Below, in pieces: positions 2,601 to 32,097 of a DNA stretch of 32,748 nt. The notes beneath the pieces were generated by a model. The model did not search any database, had not been told where the DNA came from, and saw nothing but the letters and a program-made list of their open reading frames with translations. A program made the position numbers and the translations under genes. Location of the stretch: positions 234,135-266,882 of the forward strand of contig NW_003109107.1 of the NCBI RefSeq assembly GCF_000003605.2, in the 5' to 3' direction. Every line of letters starts with the position of its first letter. The stretch's first letter is position 1. This DNA is from Saccoglossus kowalevskii. Lineage: Eukaryota > Hemichordata > Enteropneusta > Harrimaniidae.

Positions 2601-4979
2601 CCATGAGTGCGTTATTCCAGGTAAGGTCCCTGGAATCTTACCGATATTGATTTAGTCGCTATTTCCGTAGTCATCGCTATTAATTCACAAACAAAACTAG
2701 TGGTGAAATAGTAATTAGTAATTTTCACCTGTGTCGTCATTTTAATTATCCTCGCTATTTCCCACACCAGAGTGAATAAAACACTATTACTTGCAGTATG
2801 TCACTAAAGCAATGTAACACGAATGCATGATGCAAAGCCCTTTCTATAAATGTCTAAATGTTCTTTGGTCGAAGTAAGAAACCAGGTGATAATATCAGAG
2901 CATGGGTCTTATTTTGGAACTCCTGCCAGAGCAACTGCACAAAAACATAAGGACAAATTAGGAGCTCCTAAGGATGGTATTCCCAGATTAACACCAGTTG
3001 TTATTAAGACATATCTTATTAATTCTCAACTCCCGTGAAAGGATCGCAAAATCCTACTCACTGCAAAAGCTACACACTAAGAAGCTACGTAACATAAATC
3101 AAAAGTTCTTTGGGGGATCACTGGATTTTCAAATGATATGAAGGGGGTCACCCTGTTTTTTTTTTCCTTGAGGGGAATTCTTTTCATACTTTTGTGACAT
3201 CAGATTCCCCAGCATCCCCACCCCGGCAAAAGAATATGACCAGTCCCGTATTACTTTTATCAGTTGAAAAATCCTTAATCAACCGAAGAATCGAAAGACA
3301 GATAAAACTTAATGTGTACACTTGGTGTTTTGATATTTGTATAGCGTTCATTTTTATTAATATATAATCCTAATTGTAAAGAGCGTAAAGCCCCAATATG
3401 TGGCAAAGCAATAAAAATAATTTATGATCACACGATACCCACAAACCCTCTGCTAGTTCCGCGAAGTGTTGTTTCGAAAGTTAAACTCACCTCACTATAC
3501 GCGGAACCCCATACATAATCGCCATTCATTATGATTGACCTCTTTTCAACTAGCGTGACCCTGCGATATTGAAAAACAGTTCTGCAGCGAACGGGTCGAC
3601 ATTTTGATAGCTCATACGCGCTGTTCCGATTATATTTTGGTCTTACTACACATTGACATTATTACTAGGTGAGTTGGAGGATGTTTTAATCTGTTTCTGT
3701 TGCAGTTACTCTGTCGTACAAAGTACTTCGATCACTAGTGTCTAACAATTGAAAATATTTGCCACTTATGGCGGACCATTGGTGTCACACTCGATCTGAA
3801 AGCAATGGTTGCCACAAAGTGAACAATTCACATTGGCTTCGTTCTATAATTGATTGCCATATTGAATACACAGATCAAGTGTCGCGTCTACTACCAAAAT
3901 GAATAAAAATATTTCCCTGAAATCCATAGACAACTAATTTGGTTCTGGGGAATTGTGGTCGTCTTTTATTTTGTCTGTAAAAATGGCGAATTCGCGTTGT
4001 GCATGCATACAAAGATTAACGTCCTTAAAAATGGCACGGGTGATTTCACTTGCGGAATGTAGACAAACTTTTCTTCGTACCTGTCCTAATAATATCGTCA
4101 GCTCTTTTCAAATCGTAATACATGGAGTAGAGTTAACTATATCCCTCTACAGGTGGCATGGTAAACACAGGGTCCACGAATATTTGTACATGATGGGAAT
4201 CCTAAATACAAAAAAAAAAGATATTTGAATCATATTCACATTTAGCCCATGATTTGAATTCTGCTTATGAGACTCCTGTTTCACTGATACAGTCTGTGTG
4301 ATATTGCTGGTTTGGTGCATGCACTAATGCCCTATCGGTACAACACTGATATAGCATTTGACAACTTTACCAAAGTCACTTAAGTCAACTCGAGAAACCT
4401 CCTCTCTACTTTCTCATTATTTAAAGTGCTAAAACTAAGTTTCTTAGACTTAATATGCTTAGAAATGTGCTTTGTTGAAGAATTATTATATTTCTAAGCA
4501 GACGCCGCTACAGTAGGGACAATCAAATTTGGTAATCCCATGCACAGTGATTTCTTCGAGCACGTCTTTCCTACATAAAATCATTGTAAAACATAGAAAT
4601 CACACATGGAAATGATGGTATAAATCAAACAATCACCACTCGATGGTTAAAAGACACACCAATCGTCATATATATTTAATCTGCGTATACACTGAAATCA
4701 ACAAATGTATGTATGATGTATATTAATGAACCTACATAATTATAAAATAAACTTAAACGACAGTTACTCACTGTATGTATGTATGTTTGATTGTTTGAAT
4801 AAGAAGAATTTCAAATGAAAACAATTGGTTCTATAACTATTTGCAATATGAATATGGGGGTGTTAACTTAAATATACTACTTTAAGATTATTGATCAAAT
4901 AAACAAGCAGTTGAAACAGTTTGACCTTTCAATCAGTTAAAATCAAGATCTAGATTCGCAAACATTTGATTTTAAGTTT
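2601..4979. other. intergenic stretch, no firm gene
   Basis: I see no convincing gene here. Just after the array, 2614-2621 and 2629-2636 form a perfect 8-bp inverted repeat (ATTCCAGG / CCTGGAAT). A minus-strand frame at 3491-3658 is open for 56 codons and ends at a good donor, but I recognise no protein in it. Short ATG-started frames at 2850-3038 and 3953-4228 look like chance. The 5' UTR exon of the downstream GTPase gene, if present, lies in this stretch or further left, but I cannot place it. Confidence 0.5.
3491..3658 (-). other. possible coding exon, unknown
   Basis: On the minus strand a frame is open from just after a TAA at 3659-3661 to a GAG followed by the donor GTGAGT (3485-3490). 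It holds 56 codons, with an internal Met 13 codons before the donor (start of peptide MNGDYVWGSAYSE). The stretch has more CpG than its surroundings. No acceptor with a good pyrimidine tract and no known domain are visible, so it may be a first exon or chance. Confidence 0.15.
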
Positions 4980-4993
4980 TGATTTCATTGCAG
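4980..4993 (+). other. splice acceptor before the GIMAP-like CDS
   Basis: TGATTTCATTGCAG is a pyrimidine-rich tract ending in AG, six bases before the ATG at 4999. It implies that an upstream, probably untranslated, exon is spliced onto the coding exon. Confidence 0.6.
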
Positions 4994-4998
4994 TTACC

Positions 4999-5844
4999 AT
5001 GGCGTATTCATCAGCAGGAAGGATTCCAAAAGGAGACCAATTAACTCTTGTTCTTGTAGGCCGAACAGGTTCCGGTAAAAGTGCAACTGGAAACACCATA
5101 TTAGGTAAACCACATTTCATGTCGGTGCGCTCGATGTCATCAAAAACAAGAAGCATAGCATGGGGTCGACGTGAACAAGGAAGAAAACTTGTGGTAATCG
5201 ACACACCTGGATTCTTCGACACCAGTGTTGAACTGACCAATGAAGATATGGCTAAAGAAATTGCAAAATGTGTTGGCATTGCAATGACACAGGGCAATGG
5301 TCTAGACGCTATTATATTGACACTGAATGCCGATGAACGACTAACCGAAGAACACATCAAGAGTATAAAGTTACTACGTGCTTTATTCGGTGACGACATG
5401 ATGAAATATGTTACAATACTGTTTACACGGAAGGATCAACTTGATCTCGATAAAGTCAGTTTAGCCGATTTCTTGGAGGAGGTTCCCTCGTATATGAAAC
5501 ATCTGCTAATAGACTGCAATAACAGGGTGCTAGCTTTCGACAACAGAACCAATGACGCAAATGTCAAGGAGCAACAGACTGCCGAGCTTGTGCGATTGGT
5601 CGACAAAACCAGAGCTTCCAACGGAAATAAACCGTTTACAAATGATATTACGAGACGCGTGAAGGAAGCCGTTGAAGATGATAGACTGTGCAGGTATACT
5701 GGCATGGTAGGGGCTGACAGACAAGCAGATGATATCGCATCGGGGAATAACAGTGAAGTCATCGACAAAATACTAGAATTTCTTACTGCACTAATACCCG
5801 TGGCGTTAACAGTGGCACAGTTATTTATGCAATCCAGGAAATGA
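4999..5844 (+). CDS. GIMAP/AIG1-type GTPase
   Basis: The product is a 281-aa GTP-binding protein of the AIG1 (GIMAP/IAN) family. These are septin-like GTPases that assemble on intracellular membranes, linked to lymphocyte survival in vertebrates and to immune or stress responses in invertebrates and plants. Visible motifs are G1 GRTGSGKS at residues 21-28 with the family continuation ATGNTILG, G3 DTPGFFD at 68-74, the GIMAP-specific conserved box around residues 125-142 ([18 protein letters not shown]), and G4 TRKD at 143-146. N182 in AFDNR is the probable G5 region. The last 25 residues hold a hydrophobic segment (about 258-278, [16 protein letters not shown]) followed by SRK, like a C-terminal membrane anchor. 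I chose ATG 4999 over the in-frame ATG at 4966 because a splice acceptor ends at 4993 and the context is ACCATGG. The domain is complete, with no frameshift. The family call is firm; the cellular role in this animal is inferred. Confidence 0.93.
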
Positions 5845-13800: not shown

Positions 13801-16662
13801 GTGGGGTTGATATCAAAAAACTTTCCATCCTACAAAAACGATTTTACTTTTTAATGAAGTCAAAAAAATCTTGGAGTAATTGTAGATCATTTTTTTTTTC
13901 TATCCAATCATGGACAGAAATAACCAAAAAGAAAAAGAAAAACATCCAAGACGAGAAAATGGTTTAGTTCGAGTGTAAATATGTGCACCAAATGAGGTGC
14001 ATTTGTAAAGTCTTTTTACACCCACCCAACAGCCAACTGCTACGCAATACTACTGTCCGATTATCAATTTGTATTTAATGGTGAATGTAGTCTGACACCA
14101 TGACCAATATTTGAATTAAGTTTCAGTGGGGGGGGGGGGGTGGAAAAAAACTAAAGGAATTAATTTTTTTATCCGACATCGATCTTTTGACGTCGTCCTT
14201 TACTTCATTCTCAGGGGCGTCTTTTCCCCAAATACAGTTTATATTCGAAAACAATTTTTGCCTGTCAACTACTGGCTGATTATAAATGATTGATGTTTCA
14301 TGTGATCTGTTTATAATCAAATGCTGCTGGTTTGGAAAATACATGTACATACAATCTCCACTCATGCATCTTGTAACAAATCATCATAGCACATTTTTTG
14401 ACCGCTTCACTACTTTTTAGTTTACTATGACTAAAATAGTGCCATTCATATAGCATTCATGTATATCTAAATAATCTTTGTCTACAGAGAATGGAAATAA
14501 ATACTGTGAAATACTTTATTTTAGCTGGAATTAATTTTCGCTGAAAAGACTTTTTTGGGTGTTTTGTGTGGATTTTATTTTCACTGATTTTTGACGAGTT
14601 TAATGTAAAATATAGGAAAAAAAGTATATTCGCTAGATTTTATTTTCACTGAATCATTCCTTCAGCGAAAATAGCGAAAATTAATTCCAAGCGTATTTTA
14701 CAGTAGTTACTTATAACTAAAATGTTGCTTCTCATGTGTTGTTGCTGTAGGTGGAGTGTGATTGTAGGTGTAGTGGTGTCAGTCATATTCGTCATTATAG
14801 TAATTATTGTTGTGAGCTGCTTTATGTGTAGCTGTTGTATCTTAAACCAGCAGCGAAGAGCCACTCGTACAAGTAAGTACCAGTATTCAATGTTTATTCA
14901 ACAGTTGTGCCTTGCAGTACTGTGGTCATACTTGCTTAATACTATTACCACTTTATATTCATATATGGTATGCACCTGTATTTTTTTTTTTTCACTCTTT
15001 ACAAAATTTTATTTCATTACATTTATTGCAGTAAACATTAATTACATGATACAAAGCGACAAAGACAAGCAAACAAAAGTAACAGAAATAAAACAAAACA
15101 AAAAAGGGTAATTGCTAATGCACTGAAATGAAAAAAGTTTACACACTATCAGAAATAATAGACCACTTCCGTAAATGTAATTCCAATTTGTTTTTAGATA
15201 TAGCTATATGCTTTTCAATCTCGCATGCTTCAGTTACCACCTTACGAAAATATACATCACTCGGTATACTCTTACTCATTTTAAAATTATAAATGTATTG
15301 CTTCCCTAAAAGTACCAAATAATTCGCCAACACTGAAAAGTCAATACAGCCTGAAATTATCTGTCTGAGGGAAAGAGCATCTAGACCAAAGATATTTTTA
15401 AATACATCACTAAGGGCAAACCAAAATTTCTTTGTATATTTACAATAAGAAAAAAGATGGTAAGTAGTTTCCGTTTCCTGATGACAGAACGAACAATTGG
15501 GACTACTGACTTTTGATGATTTCATTTTAAAAAGATCATAATTAGTGAACAAGATTTTATGTAGTAACTTAAATTGAAATTCTCTTGATTTTGTGTCAGT
15601 TGCTGTCCTAAATGGTAAAACATAATATTTAGACATAGCAGCAAAGAGTTTAAAATCTTTTATAAAATATGGTGTTGTATGTTTCATGATTTGGTTAAGG
15701 ATGGCCGACAGGTGCCCATTTTAGTTGAAAAAATGAAGTATTTCTAACCAGATCCTGTTTATACATGGATGTATTTTTTATGGTACATAAATTTTTTTGT
15801 AGAAAATCATGGAGCATTTTTATATCACCAACTTACTGGCAACCATTGTGTTTTTAGAAATATTTTCCAGGAGCTAAATCATTTATCATGTCAGACTATG
15901 TAGTGTTCTTATTATTCTCATGTATAGATATTGTAACCAATGTATCAGCTTCTTGTTCATAACCCTAAACTGGTATTTTACAAAGTTTTCAAAATTTACA
16001 TGTTTTGCACTGTCTAACAACACTGTACTAGAAATGTACATTTACCCATGCTTTGTGTGAAGTTGAATATTTTTATATGATGGTAAATACGAAAACCATA
16101 TATGATACCGATAGATTGTAATTGAATGATCATAAGCAAAGCTCTCACTGTAATCTGATGCTCCTAGTTAAAGTAATGTCAAATAGTAAAATATAAATCA
16201 TATTATTCATGTTTAAACTTTGAATATTTTTTTTTCTCTTCAGCAACAACCGTGACCCGGCCAGCAACTCAGATGACCACTGTCACAAATACCAACTATC
16301 CGATGGGACCACAACCTTATCCAGCACAGCCCCAATGTCAGCCATATCCAGCACAACCCTATCCAGCTCAGCCATACTCAGCCCCTCCACCATCCTATCC
16401 ATCAGCTACTGCTGGAGCTGCACCGTACCCAGCTGCACCGAATTATGATCCATCAAATTACCCTGCATACCCCCCAAGTACTGCACCAGGTTACCCACCA
16501 GCCCCTTCCTACCCTCCTCCATCAGATGCCCCTCCCTATCCTCCCCCATCAGATGCTCCTCCCTACCCTCCCCCGTCGGATGTCCCTTCCTACCCTCCTC
16601 CATCGGATGCCCCACCATATGCGCCAACATCGAATGCTCCTCCATACCCAACAAAATACTAG
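10810..16662 (+). CDS. Shisa-family transmembrane protein, four coding exons
   Basis: A complete gene with CDS exons 10810-10867, 12923-13121, 14751-14872 and 16244-16662 joins in frame to 265 aa. Residues 1-22 are a signal peptide. Residues 25-64 carry the Shisa cysteine pattern, beginning CVGYYDSFNDWQSGFDC and ending in two CC pairs (54-55, 63-64). An acidic linker (65-78, seven consecutive or nearly consecutive Asp) leads to one membrane helix (about 88-108), a short Cys-rich juxtamembrane stretch, and a basic NQQRRATR stop-transfer segment. The cytoplasmic tail is rich in Pro/Tyr, with PPPSYP and five copies of a 9-residue repeat like YPPPSDAPP. Shisa proteins act in the ER, endosomes or plasma membrane as adaptors; their tails bind WW-domain or ESCRT partners. 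It most resembles the Shisa-4/5 type by length and tail; I cannot settle orthology. The CpG-rich block upstream may be its promoter. Confidence 0.88.
11708..12745 (+). repeat. dispersed repeat with hairpin head and tandem body
   Basis: The head at 11788-11818 is a hairpin (AGCTCCGCT ... AGCGGAGCT around a GTCGA-like loop), with a decayed second head at 11708-11740. The body consists of several diverged tandem copies of a roughly 160-bp unit containing GATATCTTCA, a TGTCATTTTTGGT segment, AAAAGTGATATTTT and AAAACTACAAG. It ends with GGAGCTATCTCAGCCAA. The same element, inverted, is at 29171-29710. It lies in intron 1 of the Shisa-like gene. No coding capacity is seen, so it is a non-autonomous repeat. 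Confidence 0.8.
12923..13121 (+). CDS. Shisa-like exon 2 (cysteine-rich domain)
   Basis: The acceptor TATTACTCAG and donor GTAAGTG flank 199 nt that encode the six-cysteine ectodomain and an Asp-rich linker. Phases 1 in and 2 out match the neighbouring exons. The split Val codon completes a plausible signal-cleavage site (TVTA before DYC). Confidence 0.88.
13742..14198. mobile_element. foldback / MITE-like element in intron 2
   Basis: The ends are inverted copies of each other. The left end begins GGGACGACGTCAAAAG, then GATGTCGGATAAAAAA; the right end carries the same motifs in reverse. Similarity extends about 60-70 bp inward, to a G-rich run. TTTA is found on both sides (one extra G at the left), a likely target duplication. 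No transposase frame is inside. Confidence 0.75.
14128..14140. repeat. poly(G) run
   Basis: Thirteen consecutive G residues inside the right arm of the foldback element. Confidence 0.8.
14502..14705. mobile_element. mariner-type MITE, copy 1
   Basis: A 204-bp element bounded by TA, with ends CTGTGAAATACTTTATTTTA and its imperfect reverse complement. The interior resembles the copy at 21843-22054. The TA target site and CTGTA-like ends suggest mobilisation by a Tc1/mariner transposase. It ends 45 bp before exon 3 of the Shisa-like gene. Confidence 0.8.
14751..14872 (+). CDS. Shisa-like exon 3 (membrane helix)
   Basis: The acceptor GTTGCTGTAG and donor GTAAGTAC bound 122 nt that encode the single membrane helix (V/I-rich), a Cys-rich end (CFMCSCC) and the basic stop-transfer segment. 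Confidence 0.88.
14981..15687 (-). mobile_element. LINE 3' end with zf-RVT-type ORF2 fragment
   Basis: A 182-codon minus-strand frame (15139-15687) shows the zinc-binding C-terminal pattern of many animal LINE reverse transcriptases: PFRTATDTKSREFQFKLLHK, then CSFCHQETETTYHLFSYC, then FW and a basic end. Downstream is a short untranslated part and a T-run on the plus strand (about 14982-14992), equal to a poly(A) tail on the minus strand. No reverse transcriptase core is present, so this is a 5'-truncated copy, inserted in antisense orientation in intron 3 of the Shisa-like gene. Confidence 0.82.
16244..16662 (+). CDS. Shisa-like exon 4 (proline-rich tail)
   Basis: A T-rich tract ending TCTCTTCAG precedes 419 nt that encode the Pro/Tyr/Ala-rich cytoplasmic tail and stop TAG. 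Near 16500-16640 the DNA is a 27-nt tandem repeat that encodes YPPPSDAPP-like units, so length variation between individuals is likely. Confidence 0.9.
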
Positions 16663-22747: not shown

Positions 22748-22936
22748 TCACTCTACATCTGAGTGCAGTGGTTGGAAGTTAGGAATGGGTCCAACTTCCC
22801 GACACGATGCTCCCTGGCAGATCATCAGCATTTCCAATCGCTCGTTTTGTTCTTCGATGATATGGGGATCCACTTGATGGATGATATTGACAAGCTGGTC
22901 AGGATCCTTGGATATATTGTACATTTCAACAAAACT
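22748..22936 (-). CDS. GNS last coding exon
   Basis: 62 codons plus TGA, phase 0, acceptor TTTTTCAG. Encodes [18 protein letters not shown], then a GASCR motif like the family's GPTCR. It ends shortly after, so the C-terminal end is shorter than in the human protein. Confidence 0.93.
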   Translation of the reverse strand, partial: SFVEMYNISKDPDQLVNIIHQVDPHIIEEQNERLEMLMICQGASCREVGPIPNFQPLHSDVE

Positions 22937-25900
22937 CTGAAAAACAAAATGTAGTAATACATTGTTCATATGTACAAACTGCATTGAAGAACACATTGTG
23001 CCCTTCGCCATAACACTACATTCGTTTAATAAATCCACAATAATAATATAAAGTCAAAAACTGCCAATCTTAGTAATCAATTTAGCTTTTTATTACCATA
23101 AAAATGATGCTGATTGCAGAGTTTCATAAAATGATTTTTCTTTTGCAATTGTCTCTTGCAAAATTATCAACAGCGAAAAGTACTCTTTGCAATCAATTGG
23201 CTGATTGAATTACACTGGAACGTTTTAAACTGATGTTGTTGTGCACTGCTCTCGTTGATTGGATTGGCTGGTTGGATTCAACTGCTATAAAAATTTATAA
23301 ATATTTATAAAGATGAAGGAAACAGGTTTGTTGTGCTGAGAGTACATCAAACTAACTTTACAAACTATAATTTATTCATACTACTTATTATAACTAAATC
23401 CCAATATTCAAAAGATGTGATGCACATAAGATAATAAAAAGAAATGAAGTAGTCATAAGTGGTGTTATAACATCTTTGACTATATACTCACCTCACTGTC
23501 ACTAAACTCACAATACATCATATTTACAGTATCATTCAGTGTTCGACGACATATGTATGTGTTGTTTATAGCATCTTCACATGAACAGTCTATGGGAGAA
23601 CATGCCTAGATTAAGATACATATGATTCCTAAATTAATATATAATCAATCAATCAATCAATATCAATCCCAATCAATCAATACAAGTCTACTAATATAAA
23701 TCAACCAATCAATTTACATCAATCATTCATTCAATCTCAATCAATCAATATAAGTCTACCAATATAAATCAACCAATCAATATATTTCAATCAATCAATC
23801 ATATTCAATCAATACTAGATCTAGAAGCCAACACATCTCCACATTGCCAATACAGTTTTACCCTAATTTTGTATTATCTGGGAAAGAAGGGTAAATGTCT
23901 AAAACAGATCCAGGGTGAATAATAGAAATTTAAGTATGTTCAATACAGTTTTCTTTTCATGATCTGTGCACAATCCCTGCTAGTTCAAATATAAGCTCGT
24001 ACAAAGGTGGGCACAAAGTCAATTAGAAGTAACTACGTTTTTTTTCAGAAAATTGTTTGAATATACTTGTCATATTAAAGTAAGGTTGTTACAGTTGCTA
24101 CTTCAAGAACTCTTCCAAGTGACCGCGCGAAAGAGGGTTTTAATATACATAATTAGTGTGACGCAAACTATTATAACTTGAATACCATTTTAAAAAGGTT
24201 AATTTGTAGATAACATTCTTTACAAGTCTCACTATTAACCAGAGTTTCCAAAAAATGACAATGTTCTTAATACTTGAAAGGGTCATGTTTTATTTTTTCC
24301 TCTCATAGAGCCTGACCTGGCAGTACAGCTCTTTATCTTCTACAACTGGATTCTCAAATCTATAAATTTCACATAATCTCCTTTTTATGAGTGACAGCTA
24401 ACTTACAGAAGCAACAATAAAATAAAAAAAAATATTTTCAAAACCCACCTCCCCTCAAAGACGCGATTACAGAAATGTCAGTGAGTTTCTTATTGAGAAG
24501 GTAATCAACTCACTTGCAGACCACCTGTGTTTTTACAAGGCGGGTATTTGCCATCAGGGGCATGTTCTCCATTATGTTCAACTAGAAAGTCTTGTCTCCA
24601 TCGACTGCTAGCAGGTAAGTTGCTATGCTGCACACATACATGTATATGGATACAATACAATATAAGTAGCTGATATCACAGCAATGCTGCAGGCTTTATA
24701 CAACCAATGATCAATCTTTTCACATATGTACTGTTATACAGTAGTGACATTAATAATATAATTTCTTTTGCTCATATTTTGGTATCAGATTGTGAATTAA
24801 TACCAGATACAAATTACTGAAGTAACACCAAACTCAGATGATATGTTTACAAGTAAAAACAACCAAGATTTATTCATCAAGATTGCTCTGGATGTTATAA
24901 GATTACAACTGATACCTACTTTGTTCCAAAATATTGTTGAGTACCAGCAGACTTTGTCTACCAATATATTACACATGGAAATAATAAAATACGTCTAGAC
25001 TTTAGTCAAAAGTCTGCAGTATTTTAAAATATTTGGAAAACAGCGTAGGTAATAAGTTCAATCCAGGGCAATCTCAATAACAAAATCTCAGTGTTTTTGA
25101 CTGTAAAAAGATGGTAAATATACAAGGTTCAGATGTGCCACAAAATAAAAACCGCTAGTCATTATGTATGCCAAACTGAAACATTACAACCGAATGAACA
25201 ATGACCCACCATAGTGTATTATTGCACATAGTGGAAAGTTGACCGTTGTGTATTGCCTGCACCGTAAAGTTTGCAAAATTGACTGATCAGGATCTGTAAC
25301 CCATATTGACAAAAGTTTCCCTTGTCAACACTTTTGGAAATCACATCTTTTTCAGAGAAAAAAACAAAAACAAAATTTGTAAAATGCAGAATTTTGACTG
25401 GACTATTTATGCCATTCAACGGATTAAAATACAGTGCCTGGCAGTCAAGTTCACAAACGCAGTAAAGTAAAACAAACAAACTCACGCCAAGATCTTGTGT
25501 GTTTTTGCAGCTAGGAAAGAAACCTTGTGCCTCATGCTCACCGGTGTGTTCAACAAGGAAATCTTGCCTCCATCTAGAACTTTTTATACCCATATTAGAA
25601 GAATGCTAACAAGAAATGAAATGCAAATGAGGTCTGGGATCAACAATATGCAAGCTATCATTTGGTTATTACCACTGTGACATTTCCAGGTAAAGGTTGG
25701 TGTCGGCTTGTTTGAGACTCTTTCAAATTTGTCTTAAGATATCTTCTGCTAATTGTAGAGCAGTGTCACAGAGTATGGCTGGCAATTTTAACCATTTGAA
25801 AATATTAACTTTTCGCACGAGAATTTTGATACATTATTGTGCACATTTTTATGCATTTTTATTTTAATGAATATAAATTTTAAATGTTTGATTAAAATCT

Positions 25901-28900
25901 GAAAAAAAAATGTTGGGTTTTAAAAAAATGAGAAACGTGGACTTCAGCGAAACTGTTAATAAATGCCACATATGTGTGGAATAGTGCAATGGATCATTTT
26001 GTTTGAAAATTCAGTTTATAGAGTAAACTACGAAATAACAAGTTAAATAATAATAATCAACTTATAGCTTGCATATAGTAGTGGGATAGAGAGTGGTATA
26101 GTTGCAGATTGGTGCCATGTTACATTTAAACAGTCATGCTATTGTGCAGATATTTATTTAATTTTAAAGTGAAAGTCAACATTGTGTAAGCTTATTGTGT
26201 GCATGGCATTGCATTCTGAATATATAAGAAATAAAATAAGAACTGAAATGATGGTACTCCCATGTTGGAATGAGACACAACCCTTTAATGTCAATAAAGT
26301 GAGATGCATCATGGGAGTACCACAATGTACAATGTTTTTTAAAGGTAGTATAGCAATATAAATTCAGGATCAATGGTTATTTTTTTCAAAATGTTCTTTC
26401 AATTCTATATATTCAGGCTGACACATTAGCATTCACATTAGCTACCACCAGAGCTGCTTTGACTTCTTATTAAATTATATATACCGGTATTATATAATAG
26501 TGCAAAATCATTTTATATTTATATAAATATAATTTTCATTATCACAATTTATTTATACTGCAGTGACTTCATGAGGAACAGTTACAATAGTCCCTATATG
26601 ACTGGATTCACTGATATGTGGCATTCCCTCACTCAAGGCATTCATTGCAATTGTTTAGTGTTCTACAAGGCTGGCAAAAAAGAACAAGTAGCCTGTGGGC
26701 TGATATAGTCCACTGTTTATGAATCATACTGAACCATCGAGGTTTGCCAAAAAATGCACAAATTAGATAGAAGTACATCAAAGATATCTAAAATTTTCAC
26801 TAAAATGTGATAACTGAGGTTCCCAATATACCGGTAATCAATTGAAACATTAGGATTCTATGAATATCAAGTATTTTGTATACGCTGAACAAAACTGTGA
26901 GAAACAATGGGTGAAGAAATACCATCACCGTAAAAATTTGGCCATTCATGTCTCAATCTTCTGAAGGAAAGTGCAGACTATAAACTAGACTATTTTGTGA
27001 ATTTGCGATGAAAAGAGGGATTTGGTGCTGAAAAGGTTAAATTACTAATAAAATCTGAGTATATAAATTATATTTAAATCAGACTCACCAACAATGTAAT
27101 CAAAGACATACCATCAACATCAGAGGGTACTTCATGACCAGAAAGTTCGATAAACGTTGGAGCCAGGTCAATATTTAATACTGGTTCATCGATGACTTTG
27201 CCTGCTGGTATTCCTGGACCTCTTATTAGCAATGGAACCCGGATATCAAACTCGTATAGATGCCTTTTGTCACGTGGCATGGAAAACTGACCTGGTTAAG
27301 GAGATAACAGAAAAACTGGTTAGGTGTACACAAAACTTATTCAACATTTTCAAAATCGTTATGAAATTATTTATTATCAATCAATGTATATAACCAAGTT
27401 ACGAAAAATATGAGATGTGGTACATATAAGTGTGTAATTAGTATGTCATGTTTGTTTTGTGTATAGGCAGTTTCTCACCTAAATGGTATCCATTGTCAGA
27501 CGAGTATATTATGTATGTGTTGTTCAATAATTTCTTTTTGGACAGCGTGTTGATCACATTCTCCACCATGTCATCTACGGACAACAGTGTTCTCCACCTG
27601 GAAAACATACACACATTATTATCAAATAAAGGTGATGTCATCCACAAATGAACATGATAAGAAAATATACATAATCTGATCCATACACAGAAATACAATA
27701 ACATATACAAGATGTAGTAGTTGTTAAAATTATACATACCGTTTTCTGAATATGTCATCAGTGTTTTCTACAGAGTCATTTTTCATGGGTGTAACTTGAT
27801 GTCTTACCAACCAATGTTTATCCTACAAAAGTAAAACGTAACTGTTAGCCATATCACAGGTAACAATAGACGTGTCACTGGTAACAATAGACGTGTCACT
27901 GGTAACAATAGACGTGTCACTGGAAACAATAGACATGTTACACGTGAAGCATATAGTATGACACTCCCTGCTGGTATTTTTTCGAAGTGATTACTTTATG
28001 AGCTAAAGACATTTCGAAGGGTGTGTGAAAAATGTGTGAAAGTTAACAACTCTGTGTATTTGCTTATGACAGCAATAACCTATTTAAATGTATCAATTGA
28101 TGTTTGTGTGATAAGTACATGTATAATGGTAGATTACATCAGGTAAATGATGTACGTTTCTTGTTGGTATATGGTATAATATCAAATACATGTACTAGAC
28201 ATTCATGTCTTATTATATATTATGACTGACACTTGTATGATACAAACTGCATGGAGCCAGTTTATTTGTATAGAATGTCATTAGTCAAGGCATTTCCGAA
28301 AAATTGCCTTGGAACAGAGTTTGATGTGCATCATGCACGAACCTATATTGTTCATTGGACAAACCAAGTCAAATAATGGTCAACATTTGGCCACATTGAA
28401 TTGGATTATGACACAGCTGCATGTGTATATGTGCATGCATGGTGAGTAATTGGCCCGGGGAAATAAAACTAAAAACATAATTTGAAAAATGAGTCATTAC
28501 ACTGTATGAATAAAATCATTAAACAGAAGACTTACACTGCCGTGTTTGTTGTAACTTGCAGTCCTTGGTGCTCGTTTATTAGTGTAGTTCTTCATGAACT
28601 GAGGGGCCGAGTCAAAAGGTGCATGGCAGGCAGGGGTGGATAACATCATGAAGAATGGCTTGGAATTCTCATGCTGTATTGTCAGAAAATCCTGTGCCCT
28701 GTTGTTCTAGGAAAAGACAAATTTTTCGTATTATATCGGTAAATGCATGGTGTTTTGTTGAGTCACAATGATATAGTTATAGTTAAGGTTGTAGAAATAT
28801 AACTACCGTAACCTAATATTGCACATTTGTAAAACATTATATTAAGTCAGCAAATACATCTTTACAAAAATAATGAAACATGAAAATTACTGTCAATCTG

Positions 28901-31900
28901 TTTCTTGAGAAAACAGTAATAATCGATTCAAAATATTGGCAATATTTTAATACGTGTAAGACATTAATATATCTTTTTATTTTTACCATATGTCACCTCA
29001 TTGTAATATTAGTGTCTTAAATCTCCTAACTAATTTGAATTGGGAATGGTGGGAAAAGGGGCACAAATGATTCGTTCAATTTGAATTTGGATTGTTTTAA
29101 ATGTAGCAAAACCTGGATACTAGAACAAGGCATTTGGTAGACACAAATAGTTTTGGGGACATCAAAACAAGCAGCCTGTCGGCTGAGACAGCTCCACTGT
29201 TAGCAATGCACATTTCAATTAAAGAACAGAAGATATCATTAGAAAATGAACAATATGTATATTATCAAAGCCACAGGACTTGCTGTTTTCAACAAGAATT
29301 CAAAAATATCACTTTTTACCAAAAATTTAAAAATCATTCACTAAAATTAGAGAATTAAAGATATCATCATGAAATGAACAAATCTGATAGAGGACCACAT
29401 GTAATACCTCTATATGTAATATCAAAGCAATTGGACTTGCGGTTTTCAACAAGAAGTCGAAAATATCACTTTTTACCAAAAATGACAAAAATATTCACCA
29501 AAATTAGAGAATTAAAGATATCATCATGAAATGAACAAATCTAAGAGAAGTCTACCCAAGGTACATATACACCAAGTATCAAAGCATTCAGGCTTACACT
29601 TTTCAAGAAGAAGTCGAAAAAGTAAAACATTGACACGGACGCCGGACGACGACGGACAATCACTCATATGATAAGCTCCGCTCGACAAAGTCGACAGCGG
29701 AGCTAAAAATGGGGTCATAGGTTTATGAAGTTAACATTTGAAACTATTATAAACTAATTTTTTTTTTTAATTTGTTTAAAACTATTATTAAACAATATGA
29801 AGGAGAAAAGGAGATCTTAAGCCTGTTTCACATTTAGCATGCCTAAGGCAAGCCACTATTTAATTGTTTGTTACCTGTCTCTTTGGAATGCAGATTTGTT
29901 ATATCAGTGTCCAACATGGCAAACCTCAAAGTGTTGTTTGTAGTAGTTTCCATCATCACAATAGCAATGTCTTAAGTCGTTTTTTAGTTCTCCCAACTAA
30001 TTTGAATCGCGAATGGCGGCAAAAGGGACACAAATGATTGGTTCAATTTGAATTTGGATTGTTTTAAACTTTTGTCATGTTGAACAATACCTGGCCACAG
30101 TAACAAGACATTTTGTGGACACAAATAGTTTTGGGGACATGAAAAAAAAATTGCAAGACTTTCTTTCTGACACTATTATTGTAACAGTTGTTTCAACTTT
30201 CCTTTTACTTGTGCTGTCATTCTCTCCTTTTAAATATTCCCTGGATTGCAATCTTTTTGTGTGTAATGCTGTCTTTGGAAGTACCATTGGGAATTCTTTA
30301 TTATATATATTATATATTATATATTATATATAACCTTTTCACCACCAGTTCCCTCTTTTCATCACAAATTCACAAAATAGTCCTGTTTATAGTCTGCACA
30401 TTCCTTTCAAAGATTAGGACAAAAATAGCCAAATTTTTTGAGTAACAACTGAAAATTGACTCAAATTTTGTTGGTTCCAAAATTAGGATTCATTTCCAAA
30501 AATATATTGAAGACTGTAAGAAAAAAAAAATTGCACATAAAATTTGAGTGAGAAAGTCTGGTGGTGTTTGTCATTTTTTCCTCTTGTGAAGAGCTCTTGA
30601 AACTATGCAACAAAACTCATGAATCTAAGGCTGGCCTGAATATTTATGTTTGTATTTACACACAAAATTTAGTCAAGCCTATAATTTGGGTAAGCCTATT
30701 AAGGTCTGCCTTATTTCCAAATGAAACCACCTATATACTTAATATTTAATTTTTTAGTACATGACAAGATAATATTTCAATTTAAATGACTTAAATAATT
30801 ATCATACTTTACATTGTATAGCATGTATGCAAATGTTGCACAATTTGAAATTAATAATAATCTGAATTGCCATGACTCATCAACAGTTAATAGCCAAACG
30901 AACCATGCTCAAATGCCATGTTGGCAGAGGAGAAGTAACTATATCATTATCAGATAGGAATTGTTTTGAGTGTAACTTCAGGGAAAATTATGATGTAGAC
31001 AGTCACAACAATACTGTAAAGGGGGTAATTATTCACTGGGTTTTAATTTAGCTCATTTCGCTGACTGGAAAATGCGCTAAATTAATAAAACCCAGTGAAT
31101 ATGTAAAATGTAGAATAGAACACATTATCTAAATGACGAAACCGTGAATTTTAAAACCCATTGAATGTGCCTGAAATGGTAAATCAGTGAAATTTAAACC
31201 CAGTGAAAATTAGTCATTTTACAGTAATTGGGACAGACAGTTCCTGTTCATATACCTCTCTCTTTCATCTCATTCTGTACTTTGTATACTCACTATTAAG
31301 TCTGTTAAATAGTCTTTTTTGTAGTCATGGCCATGTGTTTCAGCTGTACCATTTACTGATAACTTGTAATTATAATACACAGAGTTATGCACCTAAAGAA
31401 AGTAACATTATTATTATTATAATATATGCATACACTGTTGTAGCTCTGTAACCTGTAGCAAATTATTTTAATAACATCAGATCATTTGATAGCAATAATA
31501 ATGTAATAGTAACAAGCATTGATAATGCATAGTCCCTGTTTAGTATTAGCTGTGGTCGATGTAAATGTTCAGTACAAGTAACGTGTAGAAATGAAAGGTC
31601 AATGTTTTTTTAACACTAACACAGATTATAGATTGTGTTACTGTCAGTATTCTACCTACGTGGAAACTTTAAACTGAATTGGACTATATCTTTCAGAGGA
31701 AATAGCATTAAAGAAAAACACAGTCAGTCGGGTATTTTTGTTCAAGTATCTCCAAAAGAAATATGGGTTGCACTGTAACCCAATATGTAAGGTAATCATA
31801 CAACTTCGTACAAACAGGGACTAATAAAGTCCATTGCTATACTGCAATGATCAGAGGAACTTTTTTCAAGAGTTTGCTAACTTTCCGTTGATTCTTTTTA

Positions 31901-32097
31901 CACTTGCTGTAAAATCAAATCCAAATTTAAACATGACGAATATTTCTCCTTTTACATTGTATAAAGTAGAGAGACATTTAGGACATCAGGTAAGCAAAAC
32001 CAAAAAAATATATTTTAAAATTGCAACTTACTAATCCATTCCACCAATCCCAGCCGGGAGGTATATGCTCAACACCACCAGCATCTTTATCACCATA
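22748..32097 (-). CDS. N-acetylglucosamine-6-sulfatase, 3' part of gene
   Basis: A lysosomal sulfatase removes 6-O-sulfate from N-acetylglucosamine ends during breakdown of heparan and keratan sulfate. Nine exon positions are seen on the minus strand (32032-32097, 31294-31392, 28536-28706, 27740-27822, 27479-27597, 27089-27291, then 25486-25605 or 24514-24627, 23492-23605, 22748-22936). All join in frame to about 385-387 residues, ending in TGA. They match the family order: [57 protein letters not shown], the metal-site [36 protein letters not shown] and DPDQLVNI. The human protein is about 550 aa, so roughly the first 165 residues, with the formylglycine cysteine, lie beyond the right edge. 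One exon is duplicated. Other sulfatases such as SULF or ARSG fit much less well. Confidence 0.93.
23492..23605 (-). CDS. GNS exon h
   Basis: 38 codons, phase 0, acceptor TTAATCTAG, donor GTGAGT. Encodes [20 protein letters not shown] and ends YCEFSDSE, matching the GNS Cys-rich CVCEDAYNNTY-type segment. Confidence 0.94.
23642..23817. repeat. (AATC)n-rich imperfect microsatellite
   Basis: AATC units are interrupted by a longer repeated segment (AAGTCTACTAATATAAATCA and a near copy about 70 bp later). It lies in the GNS intron just upstream of exon h's acceptor. Confidence 0.85.
24514..24627 (-). CDS. GNS exon g, copy B (alternative)
   Basis: 38 codons, phase 0 at both ends, acceptor TGTGTGCAG, donor GTGAGT. 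Encodes [18 protein letters not shown] then GEH and CKNT. The core [12 protein letters not shown] is identical to copy A, although 8 of its 12 codons differ, all synonymously. Confidence 0.88.
25486..25605 (-). CDS. GNS exon g, copy A (alternative)
   Basis: 40 codons, phase 0 at both ends, acceptor ending GTTAG, donor GTGAGT. Encodes [20 protein letters not shown] then GEH and CKNT. It occupies the same protein position as copy B. The acceptor has a weaker pyrimidine tract. Confidence 0.85.
26252..26322. repeat. short foldback (13-bp inverted repeat)
   Basis: TGGTACTCCCATG at 26252-26264 and its perfect reverse complement at 26310-26322 enclose about 45 bp in a GNS intron. It may be the remains of a MITE. 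Confidence 0.75.
27089..27291 (-). CDS. GNS exon f
   Basis: 203 nt, phase 1 in and 0 out, acceptor TTAACCAG, donor GTGAGT. Encodes [19 protein letters not shown] through GMSLITLL, the most conserved C-terminal sulfatase stretch. Confidence 0.95.
27479..27597 (-). CDS. GNS exon e (metal-site DNG)
   Basis: 119 nt, phase 2 in and 1 out, acceptor TTTTCCAG, donor GTGAGA. Encodes [18 protein letters not shown] and SSDNGYHLG; the Asp-Asn pair is the conserved calcium-binding motif of sulfatases. Confidence 0.95.
27740..27822 (-). CDS. GNS exon d
   Basis: 83 nt, phase 0 in and 2 out, acceptor TTTTGTAG, donor GTATGT. Encodes [13 protein letters not shown] and ends IFRKR. A 21-bp tandem repeat lies about 35 bp upstream of its acceptor. 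Confidence 0.93.
27856..27944. repeat. 21-bp tandem repeat
   Basis: Four copies of a 21-bp unit containing TAACAATAGACGTGTCACTG, the last one diverged. They lie in the GNS intron close to the acceptor of exon d. Confidence 0.9.
28536..28706 (-). CDS. GNS exon c
   Basis: 57 codons, phase 0, acceptor TTTCCTAG, donor GTAAG. Contains [15 protein letters not shown], with the conserved active-site-region His, and ends NKHGS. Confidence 0.94.
29013..29162. repeat. dispersed repeat, copy 1
   Basis: Shares GTCTTAA, CAACTAATTTGAAT-like, TTCAATTTGAATTTGGATTG and ACACAAATAGTTTTGGGGAC with 29969-30140. The two copies are direct repeats on either side of the hairpin-headed element. Confidence 0.8.
29171..29710 (-). 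repeat. dispersed repeat with hairpin head (inverted copy)
   Basis: Reverse-oriented copy of the 11708-12745 element. The hairpin head is at 29674-29704, the body carries the same GATATCATCA / AAAATATCACTTTTTACC units, and the tail is the reverse complement of GGAGCTGTCTCAGCC. It lies in a GNS intron. Confidence 0.82.
29969..30140. repeat. dispersed repeat, copy 2
   Basis: A diverged direct copy of 29013-29162 with a small insertion (CTTTTGTCATGTTGAACAAT). Confidence 0.8.
30298..30332. repeat. (TATAT)n low-complexity tract
   Basis: A short AT tandem tract in a GNS intron. Confidence 0.8.
31012..31226. mobile_element. mariner-type MITE, second family
   Basis: Bounded by TA, with CTGTAAA at the left end and its inverted form TTTTACAG at the right. 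Further inward, CACTGGGTTTTAATTTAGC and copies of AAACCCAGTGAA recur in both orientations. It shares only the outermost bases with the 14502 and 21843 elements. It lies 70 bp upstream of the GNS exon b donor region, in the following intron. Confidence 0.75.
31294..31392 (-). CDS. GNS exon b
   Basis: 33 codons, phase 0 at both ends, acceptor CTTTAG, donor GTGAGT. Encodes [15 protein letters not shown] through DYLTDLI, typical of GNS. Confidence 0.93.
32032..32097 (-). CDS. GNS exon a (first visible)
   Basis: 22 codons, phase 0 at both ends, acceptor ATTTTCAG and donor GTAAGT. Encodes [19 protein letters not shown] and GL, matching the segment just after the catalytic core start in GNS. Confidence 0.92.

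Follow-up and report, generated by a model that had tools for sequence, protein, structure and literature searches.

The window analysed here, a stretch of 32,748 nucleotides of the Saccoglossus kowalevskii genome (contig NW_003109107.1), carries on its minus strand the 3' portion of a sulfatase gene of the GNS (N-acetylglucosamine-6-sulfatase) type with multiple exons, whose 5' part presumably runs past the high end of the window. The formylglycine motif (C/S-x-P/A-x-R) was absent from the three minus-strand frames of positions 32748-32098, so that this N-terminal motif presumably lies outside the window. The coding exons of the gene model, together with the introns around the two exons that concern us most (called A and B), are listed in Table 1. 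Elsewhere in the window we found an open frame on the plus strand with an AIG1/GIMAP-type GTPase domain (4954-5844; Pfam AIG1, E 3e-56), a retroelement reverse transcriptase fragment with a zf-RVT domain on the minus strand (15139-15720; E 1.5e-8) and, on the plus strand at 16177-16662, a Pro/Tyr-rich open frame with YPPPSDAP repeats that had no match in Pfam at E 0.001. Repeats are also found within the sulfatase gene. An inverted repeat pair of 136 bp (26932-27065 and 30304-30438, with 113 of 136 positions identical) lies in the introns flanking the exons from 28706-28536 to 27291-27089, and we conjecture that its pairing in the pre-mRNA might favour a circular RNA made of those four exons. 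Direct repeats about 80-81% identical (29254-29463 with 29411-29620, and 29022-29170 with 29989-30148) lie in the large intron that separates 31294 from 28706, as does, near 29700, the palindrome AGCTCCGC...GCGGAGCT; TTGA-type tandem repeats occupy about 23800-23640 of the minus strand, just before the acceptor of exon 23605-23492. Rfam yielded no matches at the gathering threshold.

Table 1. Exons of the sulfatase gene model and introns around the tandem exon pair (window coordinates)
Feature	Coordinates	Strand	Remarks
Coding exon, first in the model	32032..32097	-	further 5' exons presumed
Coding exon, same sulfatase gene	31294..31392	-	
Coding exon, same sulfatase gene	28536..28706	-	
Coding exon, same sulfatase gene	27740..27822	-	
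Coding exon, same sulfatase gene	27479..27597	-	
Exon upstream of the pair	27089..27291	-	ends ..DGMSLITLL; holds DKR, which bacterial relatives share
Intron upstream of A, 1483 nt	25606..27088	-	
Exon A of the tandem pair, 120 nt, phase 0-0	25486..25605	-	splice sites, frame, homology to B
Intron between A and B, 858 nt	24628..25485	-	
Exon B of the tandem pair, 114 nt, phase 0-0	24514..24627	-	splice sites, frame, homology to A
Intron downstream of B, 908 nt	23606..24513	-	
Exon downstream of the pair, 114 nt, phase 0	23492..23605	-	
Last coding exon	22748..22936	-	TGA at end

Exons A and B are adjacent internal homologous exons that encode the same region of the protein and are interchangeable between the same flanking exons. 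The original prediction had placed two exons here with GT-AG splice sites and phase 0 at both ends, and we confirmed this structure on the minus strand at the coordinates of Table 1, the boundaries reading ..AG/CATTCT..CTTGGC/GTGAGT in A and ..AG/CATAGC..CTGCAA/GTGAGT in B. Frame 0 is the only one of the three reading frames to be open in either exon, and both neighbours (the exon ending at 27089 and exon 23605-23492) join A or B in phase 0. Using exon A as the tblastn query against the window recovered B as the second match (E = 4e-13; next match 1.6), the reciprocal query recovered A with the same value (E = 4e-13; next match 4.0), and no further copy emerged from the window below E 1.6 with either query. 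It had also been claimed that including both exons would keep the frame, and this is borne out because all four junction combinations (A only, B only, A plus B, and the skipping of both) remain open through to a single terminal stop.

The protein predicted with either exon is a sulfatase. Both isoforms matched the Pfam Sulfatase domain (PF00884) equally well (E 2e-32) and carried the SGSH_C domain (E 1.8e-17 and 64.4 bits for isoform A; E 6e-18 and 65.9 bits for isoform B). Among the best 60 of 66 PDB matches, the top two relatives of both isoforms were 5g2v, a bacterial N-acetylglucosamine-6-sulfatase, and 7p24, a mucin-desulfating sulfatase, and no animal GNS was present in that set. The GNS-type identity put forward in the original prediction is thus supported in so far as the closest solved structures are GlcNAc-6-sulfatases, orthology to animal GNS rather than to Sulf1/2 being our assumption. 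A genome scan returned at least 586 relatives. The top 80, all bacterial, were retained and aligned, and the profile built from these 80 scored isoform B at 211.3 bits and isoform A at 210.4 bits, a near-equal fit indicating that neither copy looks degraded. A search of viral contigs for a homologue, run with isoform A, confirmed neither of the two pattern matches it gave.

To what extent both copies have been maintained by selection can be judged from their divergence. Under an alignment whose gap among the first residues could be set in several ways, A and B share 24 of 38 aligned residues and only 9 of the 38 codons, and the NG86 estimates are a pS of 0.94, which is saturated, a pN of 0.32 and a dN of 0.42. 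Within the shared core of 12 residues, eight codons differ and every residue is unchanged, as had been noticed before, with the qualification that one of the eight, a serine encoded by TCT in one copy and AGT in the other, requires more than one step and is hence not a simple synonymous change. The residues differ just before the E-x-x-G-E-H segment (SSNMGIK in A versus SNLPA in B) and just after it (EAQGFFPS versus APDGKYPP), and the final residues of the exons diverge as well (TQDLG in A versus TGGLQ in B), a feature missed in the earlier description. Comparison of the flanks (800 nt upstream and 500 nt downstream of A against 500 nt upstream and 800 nt downstream of B) gave a best E of 0.25, apart from 42 nt within the exon and a stretch trivially common to both regions because they overlap, and this dissimilarity indicates that the duplication is old. 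Saturated silent sites and unlike flanks argue against an assembly artefact or collapsed alleles set in tandem, for which we found nothing specific in favour and which we regard as extremely improbable.

We simulated the decay of one neutral copy for this single genome, under a simple substitution model that uses no tree. At 0.5 changes per site the probability of retaining at least 24 of 38 identities was 0.0003 when starting from A and 0.001 when starting from B, and at 0.75 changes per site none of 4000 runs from each start did so; the AG, the GT and the open frame survived with probabilities of about 0.04 and 0.016 at these two divergences, respectively. At lower assumed divergence one neutral copy could retain such identity (0.56-0.58 at 0.2 and 0.09-0.11 at 0.3 changes per site), so the argument for constraint needs silent sites to be saturated, which they are. 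The proposal that both copies have long been under selection is therefore backed by the saturated silent sites together with the simulations at 0.5-0.75 changes per site, and the analysis of the sequences supports an ancient tandem duplication with constraint acting on both A and B. The same evidence bears on the idea that one copy is an unused relic exon kept by chance. The acceptor of B, the weakest of the nine we scored, could be read in that sense, but the retention of 24 of 38 residues, of the frame and of both splice sites despite silent-site saturation would be unlikely for a neutral copy at the simulated divergences, and we consider a relic very unlikely.

What the exon encodes was examined by comparison with bacterial sulfatases of the S1_11 subfamily. 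Both A and B read FLVEHxGEH, and the spacing between Glu and His in their E-x-x-G-E-H segment equals that in many of the bacterial enzymes. Among the best 80 bacterial relatives the Arg of a WR pair is present in all 80 and its Trp in 77, and the bacterial counterpart of the segment in many of them is YYHYYE(Y/F)P(A/G)xH. A loose pattern of the E..[GA].H type was found in 53 of 69 anchored loci, the remaining 11 of the 80 having no anchor, and a strict E-H regular expression matched 22 of 80 loci, this low count being due to the variability of the residue preceding His in bacteria. The pattern WR-x-x-x-[YF][YF] occurs once in 73 of these relatives, is lacking in 7 and is never found twice. According to a review of algal sulfatases, residues H425, H426 and W460 of the C-terminal subdomain of BuS1_11 (7LHA/7LJ2) help recognition at subsites 0 and +1 (PMC9096561). 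The sole adjacent His pair between positions 389 and 444 of the 7lha chain stands at 423-424, and because of this we assumed the published numbering to be shifted by two; in the alignments it corresponds to the EH of 5g2v and 7p24, and hence to the GEH of exons A and B. In S1_11 enzymes, another review describes a His plus Asp/Arg triad as binding O3 and O4 (PMC10154612). The window gene has in common with the bacterial 6S-GlcNAc and L-Gal6S sulfatases of S1_11 (5g2v, 7p24 and 7lha) the segment ending in His, and differs from them in an insertion after that His which is gapped in all 80 bacterial relatives and to which the variable stretch after the segment belongs. This eukaryotic insertion causes MAFFT, when the isoforms are aligned to the 80 loci, to position the segment wrongly from GEH onwards, and we used a short alignment and the PDB alignments instead. 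On the basis of the alignment to bacterial S1_11 enzymes and of the assumed shift in the 7LHA numbering, the exon probably forms part of the sugar-binding pocket. It had been suggested that the differing parts could alter the surface of the enzyme or its substrate fit, and the second of these gains strength from the alignment of the exon with the C-terminal-subdomain segment that contacts the sugar in the S1_11 structure, so that the variation may well touch substrate fit.

Because gene structure and protein logic point in this direction, our best reading is the mutually exclusive use of A and B, and we examined the devices by which such a choice could be enforced. Enforcement by reading frame was ruled out, since with lengths of 120 and 114 nt every combination is in frame, and so was a steric block, the intron between A and B being 858 nt long. 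A mismatch of U2 and U12 sites was likewise rejected, all nine donors scored being GT and of the U2 type as judged by eye rather than with a formal U12 model. A distant branch point, the device described for OGDH (PMC7969005, in the part available), was rejected because the AG-free zones extend over only 26 nt before A and 40 nt before B. Between 27088 and 23606 we found no TGCATG and no Nova-type or MBNL-type clusters; TGTGT occurs five times there, counted without a chance estimate, and one of these sites lies at 24636, just before B.

In the Dscam gene of arthropods the choice of exon is made through the pairing of docking and selector sites. A variant of the main reading would have competing RNA pairing between introns enforce the choice of A or B in the same manner, and two studies describe this device for several genes that have exons of this kind (PMC6071210, PMC9013439). 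Against this, in an ungapped scan of the three introns of this one genome, 87, 73 and 11 of 100 dinucleotide shuffles reached the pairwise complementarity values, and for docking-type complementarity, again ungapped, 24, 58 and 36 of 100 reached those observed. We hold RNA pairing to be unlikely.

The splice sites of the pair are unequal. The acceptor of B has a pyrimidine fraction of 0.47, with a longest pyrimidine run of 3, compared with fractions of 0.59-0.76 in the other eight acceptors of the gene. Scored with an approximate frequency matrix, the donor of B reaches 9.4 bits and that of A 6.4 bits, the latter being ordinary for this gene (two of the nine donors are lower and one is tied). 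Splice-site strength, together with trans-acting factors, would most likely decide between the two exons, with A as the hypothetical default and B, which combines a good donor with the weakest acceptor, needing activation. As a direct splice from A to B must use this weak acceptor, joining of A to B may be disfavoured. In a rival reading, both exons are used in a manner that is not strictly exclusive, with A, B, A plus B (a tandem repeat of the segment) and skipping all occurring. That every combination is in frame and that none of the hard-wired exclusion devices we sought is present would agree with such use, but the 80 bacterial relatives never carry the WR-x-x-x-[YF][YF] pattern in duplicate, and a repeat of 38-40 residues inside the domain would presumably interfere with folding. 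We consider non-exclusive use decidedly unlikely.

Genes with tandem-duplicated exons that are alternatively spliced are well known, also in molluscs. One close case is the alternative oxidase (AOX) of the oyster Crassostrea virginica, also an enzyme gene, in which exon 10 is reported to be tandem-duplicated; the two variants are both expressed, in proportions that change under air exposure, and one of them is altered around key functional sites (PMC5589949). It differs in that the oyster exon is number 10 of 10 and comes with expression data, whereas the sulfatase exon is internal and known from the genome sequence. In nematodes the coq-2 gene has the exons 6a and 6e, and the part of the report at hand mentions similar exons in annelids and molluscs; in C. 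elegans both are 134 nt long and double inclusion shifts the frame, whereas here the lengths are multiples of three and 6 nt apart (PMC7434440). Among human clusters of mutually exclusive exons, the available text gives 9% with potential steric interference, 0.79% with U2/U12 incompatibility and 60% with lengths not divisible by three (PMC5740500), so that many of them, like the pair described here, have no hard-wired device; those clusters rest on junction reads, and ours on sequence. The words GNS and sulfatase are absent from the main texts, as available, of PMC5740500 and PMC9741552. GNS is mutated in Sanfilippo syndrome type D, and the accessible portion of the splicing-therapy review that says so gives GNS no other role and mentions mutually exclusive exons once, when it enumerates the types of splicing in general (PMC9146820). 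Searches of open-access papers returned none that combines N-acetylglucosamine-6-sulfatase with mutually exclusive exons, no glucosamine-6-sulfatase among the matches listed from the mollusc literature and no title with sulfatase among the matches listed for duplicated exons. The statement that no such pair has been reported in GNS accordingly stands as far as open-access papers go, and predicted isoforms may already be present in annotation databases.

Taking these results together, we consider it quite probable that an old tandem duplication gave rise to A and B, that each mRNA takes one or the other, and that the gene thereby yields two enzymes with the same catalytic core. In such a scenario, a single internal exon of this sulfatase gene of GNS type was duplicated in tandem long ago, the mature mRNA would include either A or B, and the two enzymes would differ in the two stretches flanking E-x-x-G-E-H of the C-terminal subdomain. 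The likely effect would be to adjust the enzyme's substrate preference, pH optimum or stability according to tissue or condition. A bolder view, which we offer tentatively and think rather doubtful, is that swapping the exons acts as a switch of substrate specificity, with pocket walls suiting different sulfated sugars and chosen by tissue through the regulated splicing of a frame-neutral pair; the sugars in question may be heparan versus keratan sulfate, or the animal's own glycans versus dietary algal sulfated galactans.

Since double inclusion stays in frame, the pair of exons favoured here as mutually exclusive offers a clean test of how exclusivity is enforced when neither nonsense decay nor a steric block nor U12 introns can serve. 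Should both copies be in use, a single gene would provide two versions of a class of enzymes usually seen as fixed housekeeping lysosomal hydrolases. The variation would then adjoin residues that probably read the sugar, and A and B would make a natural pair for probing the specificity of animal GNS.
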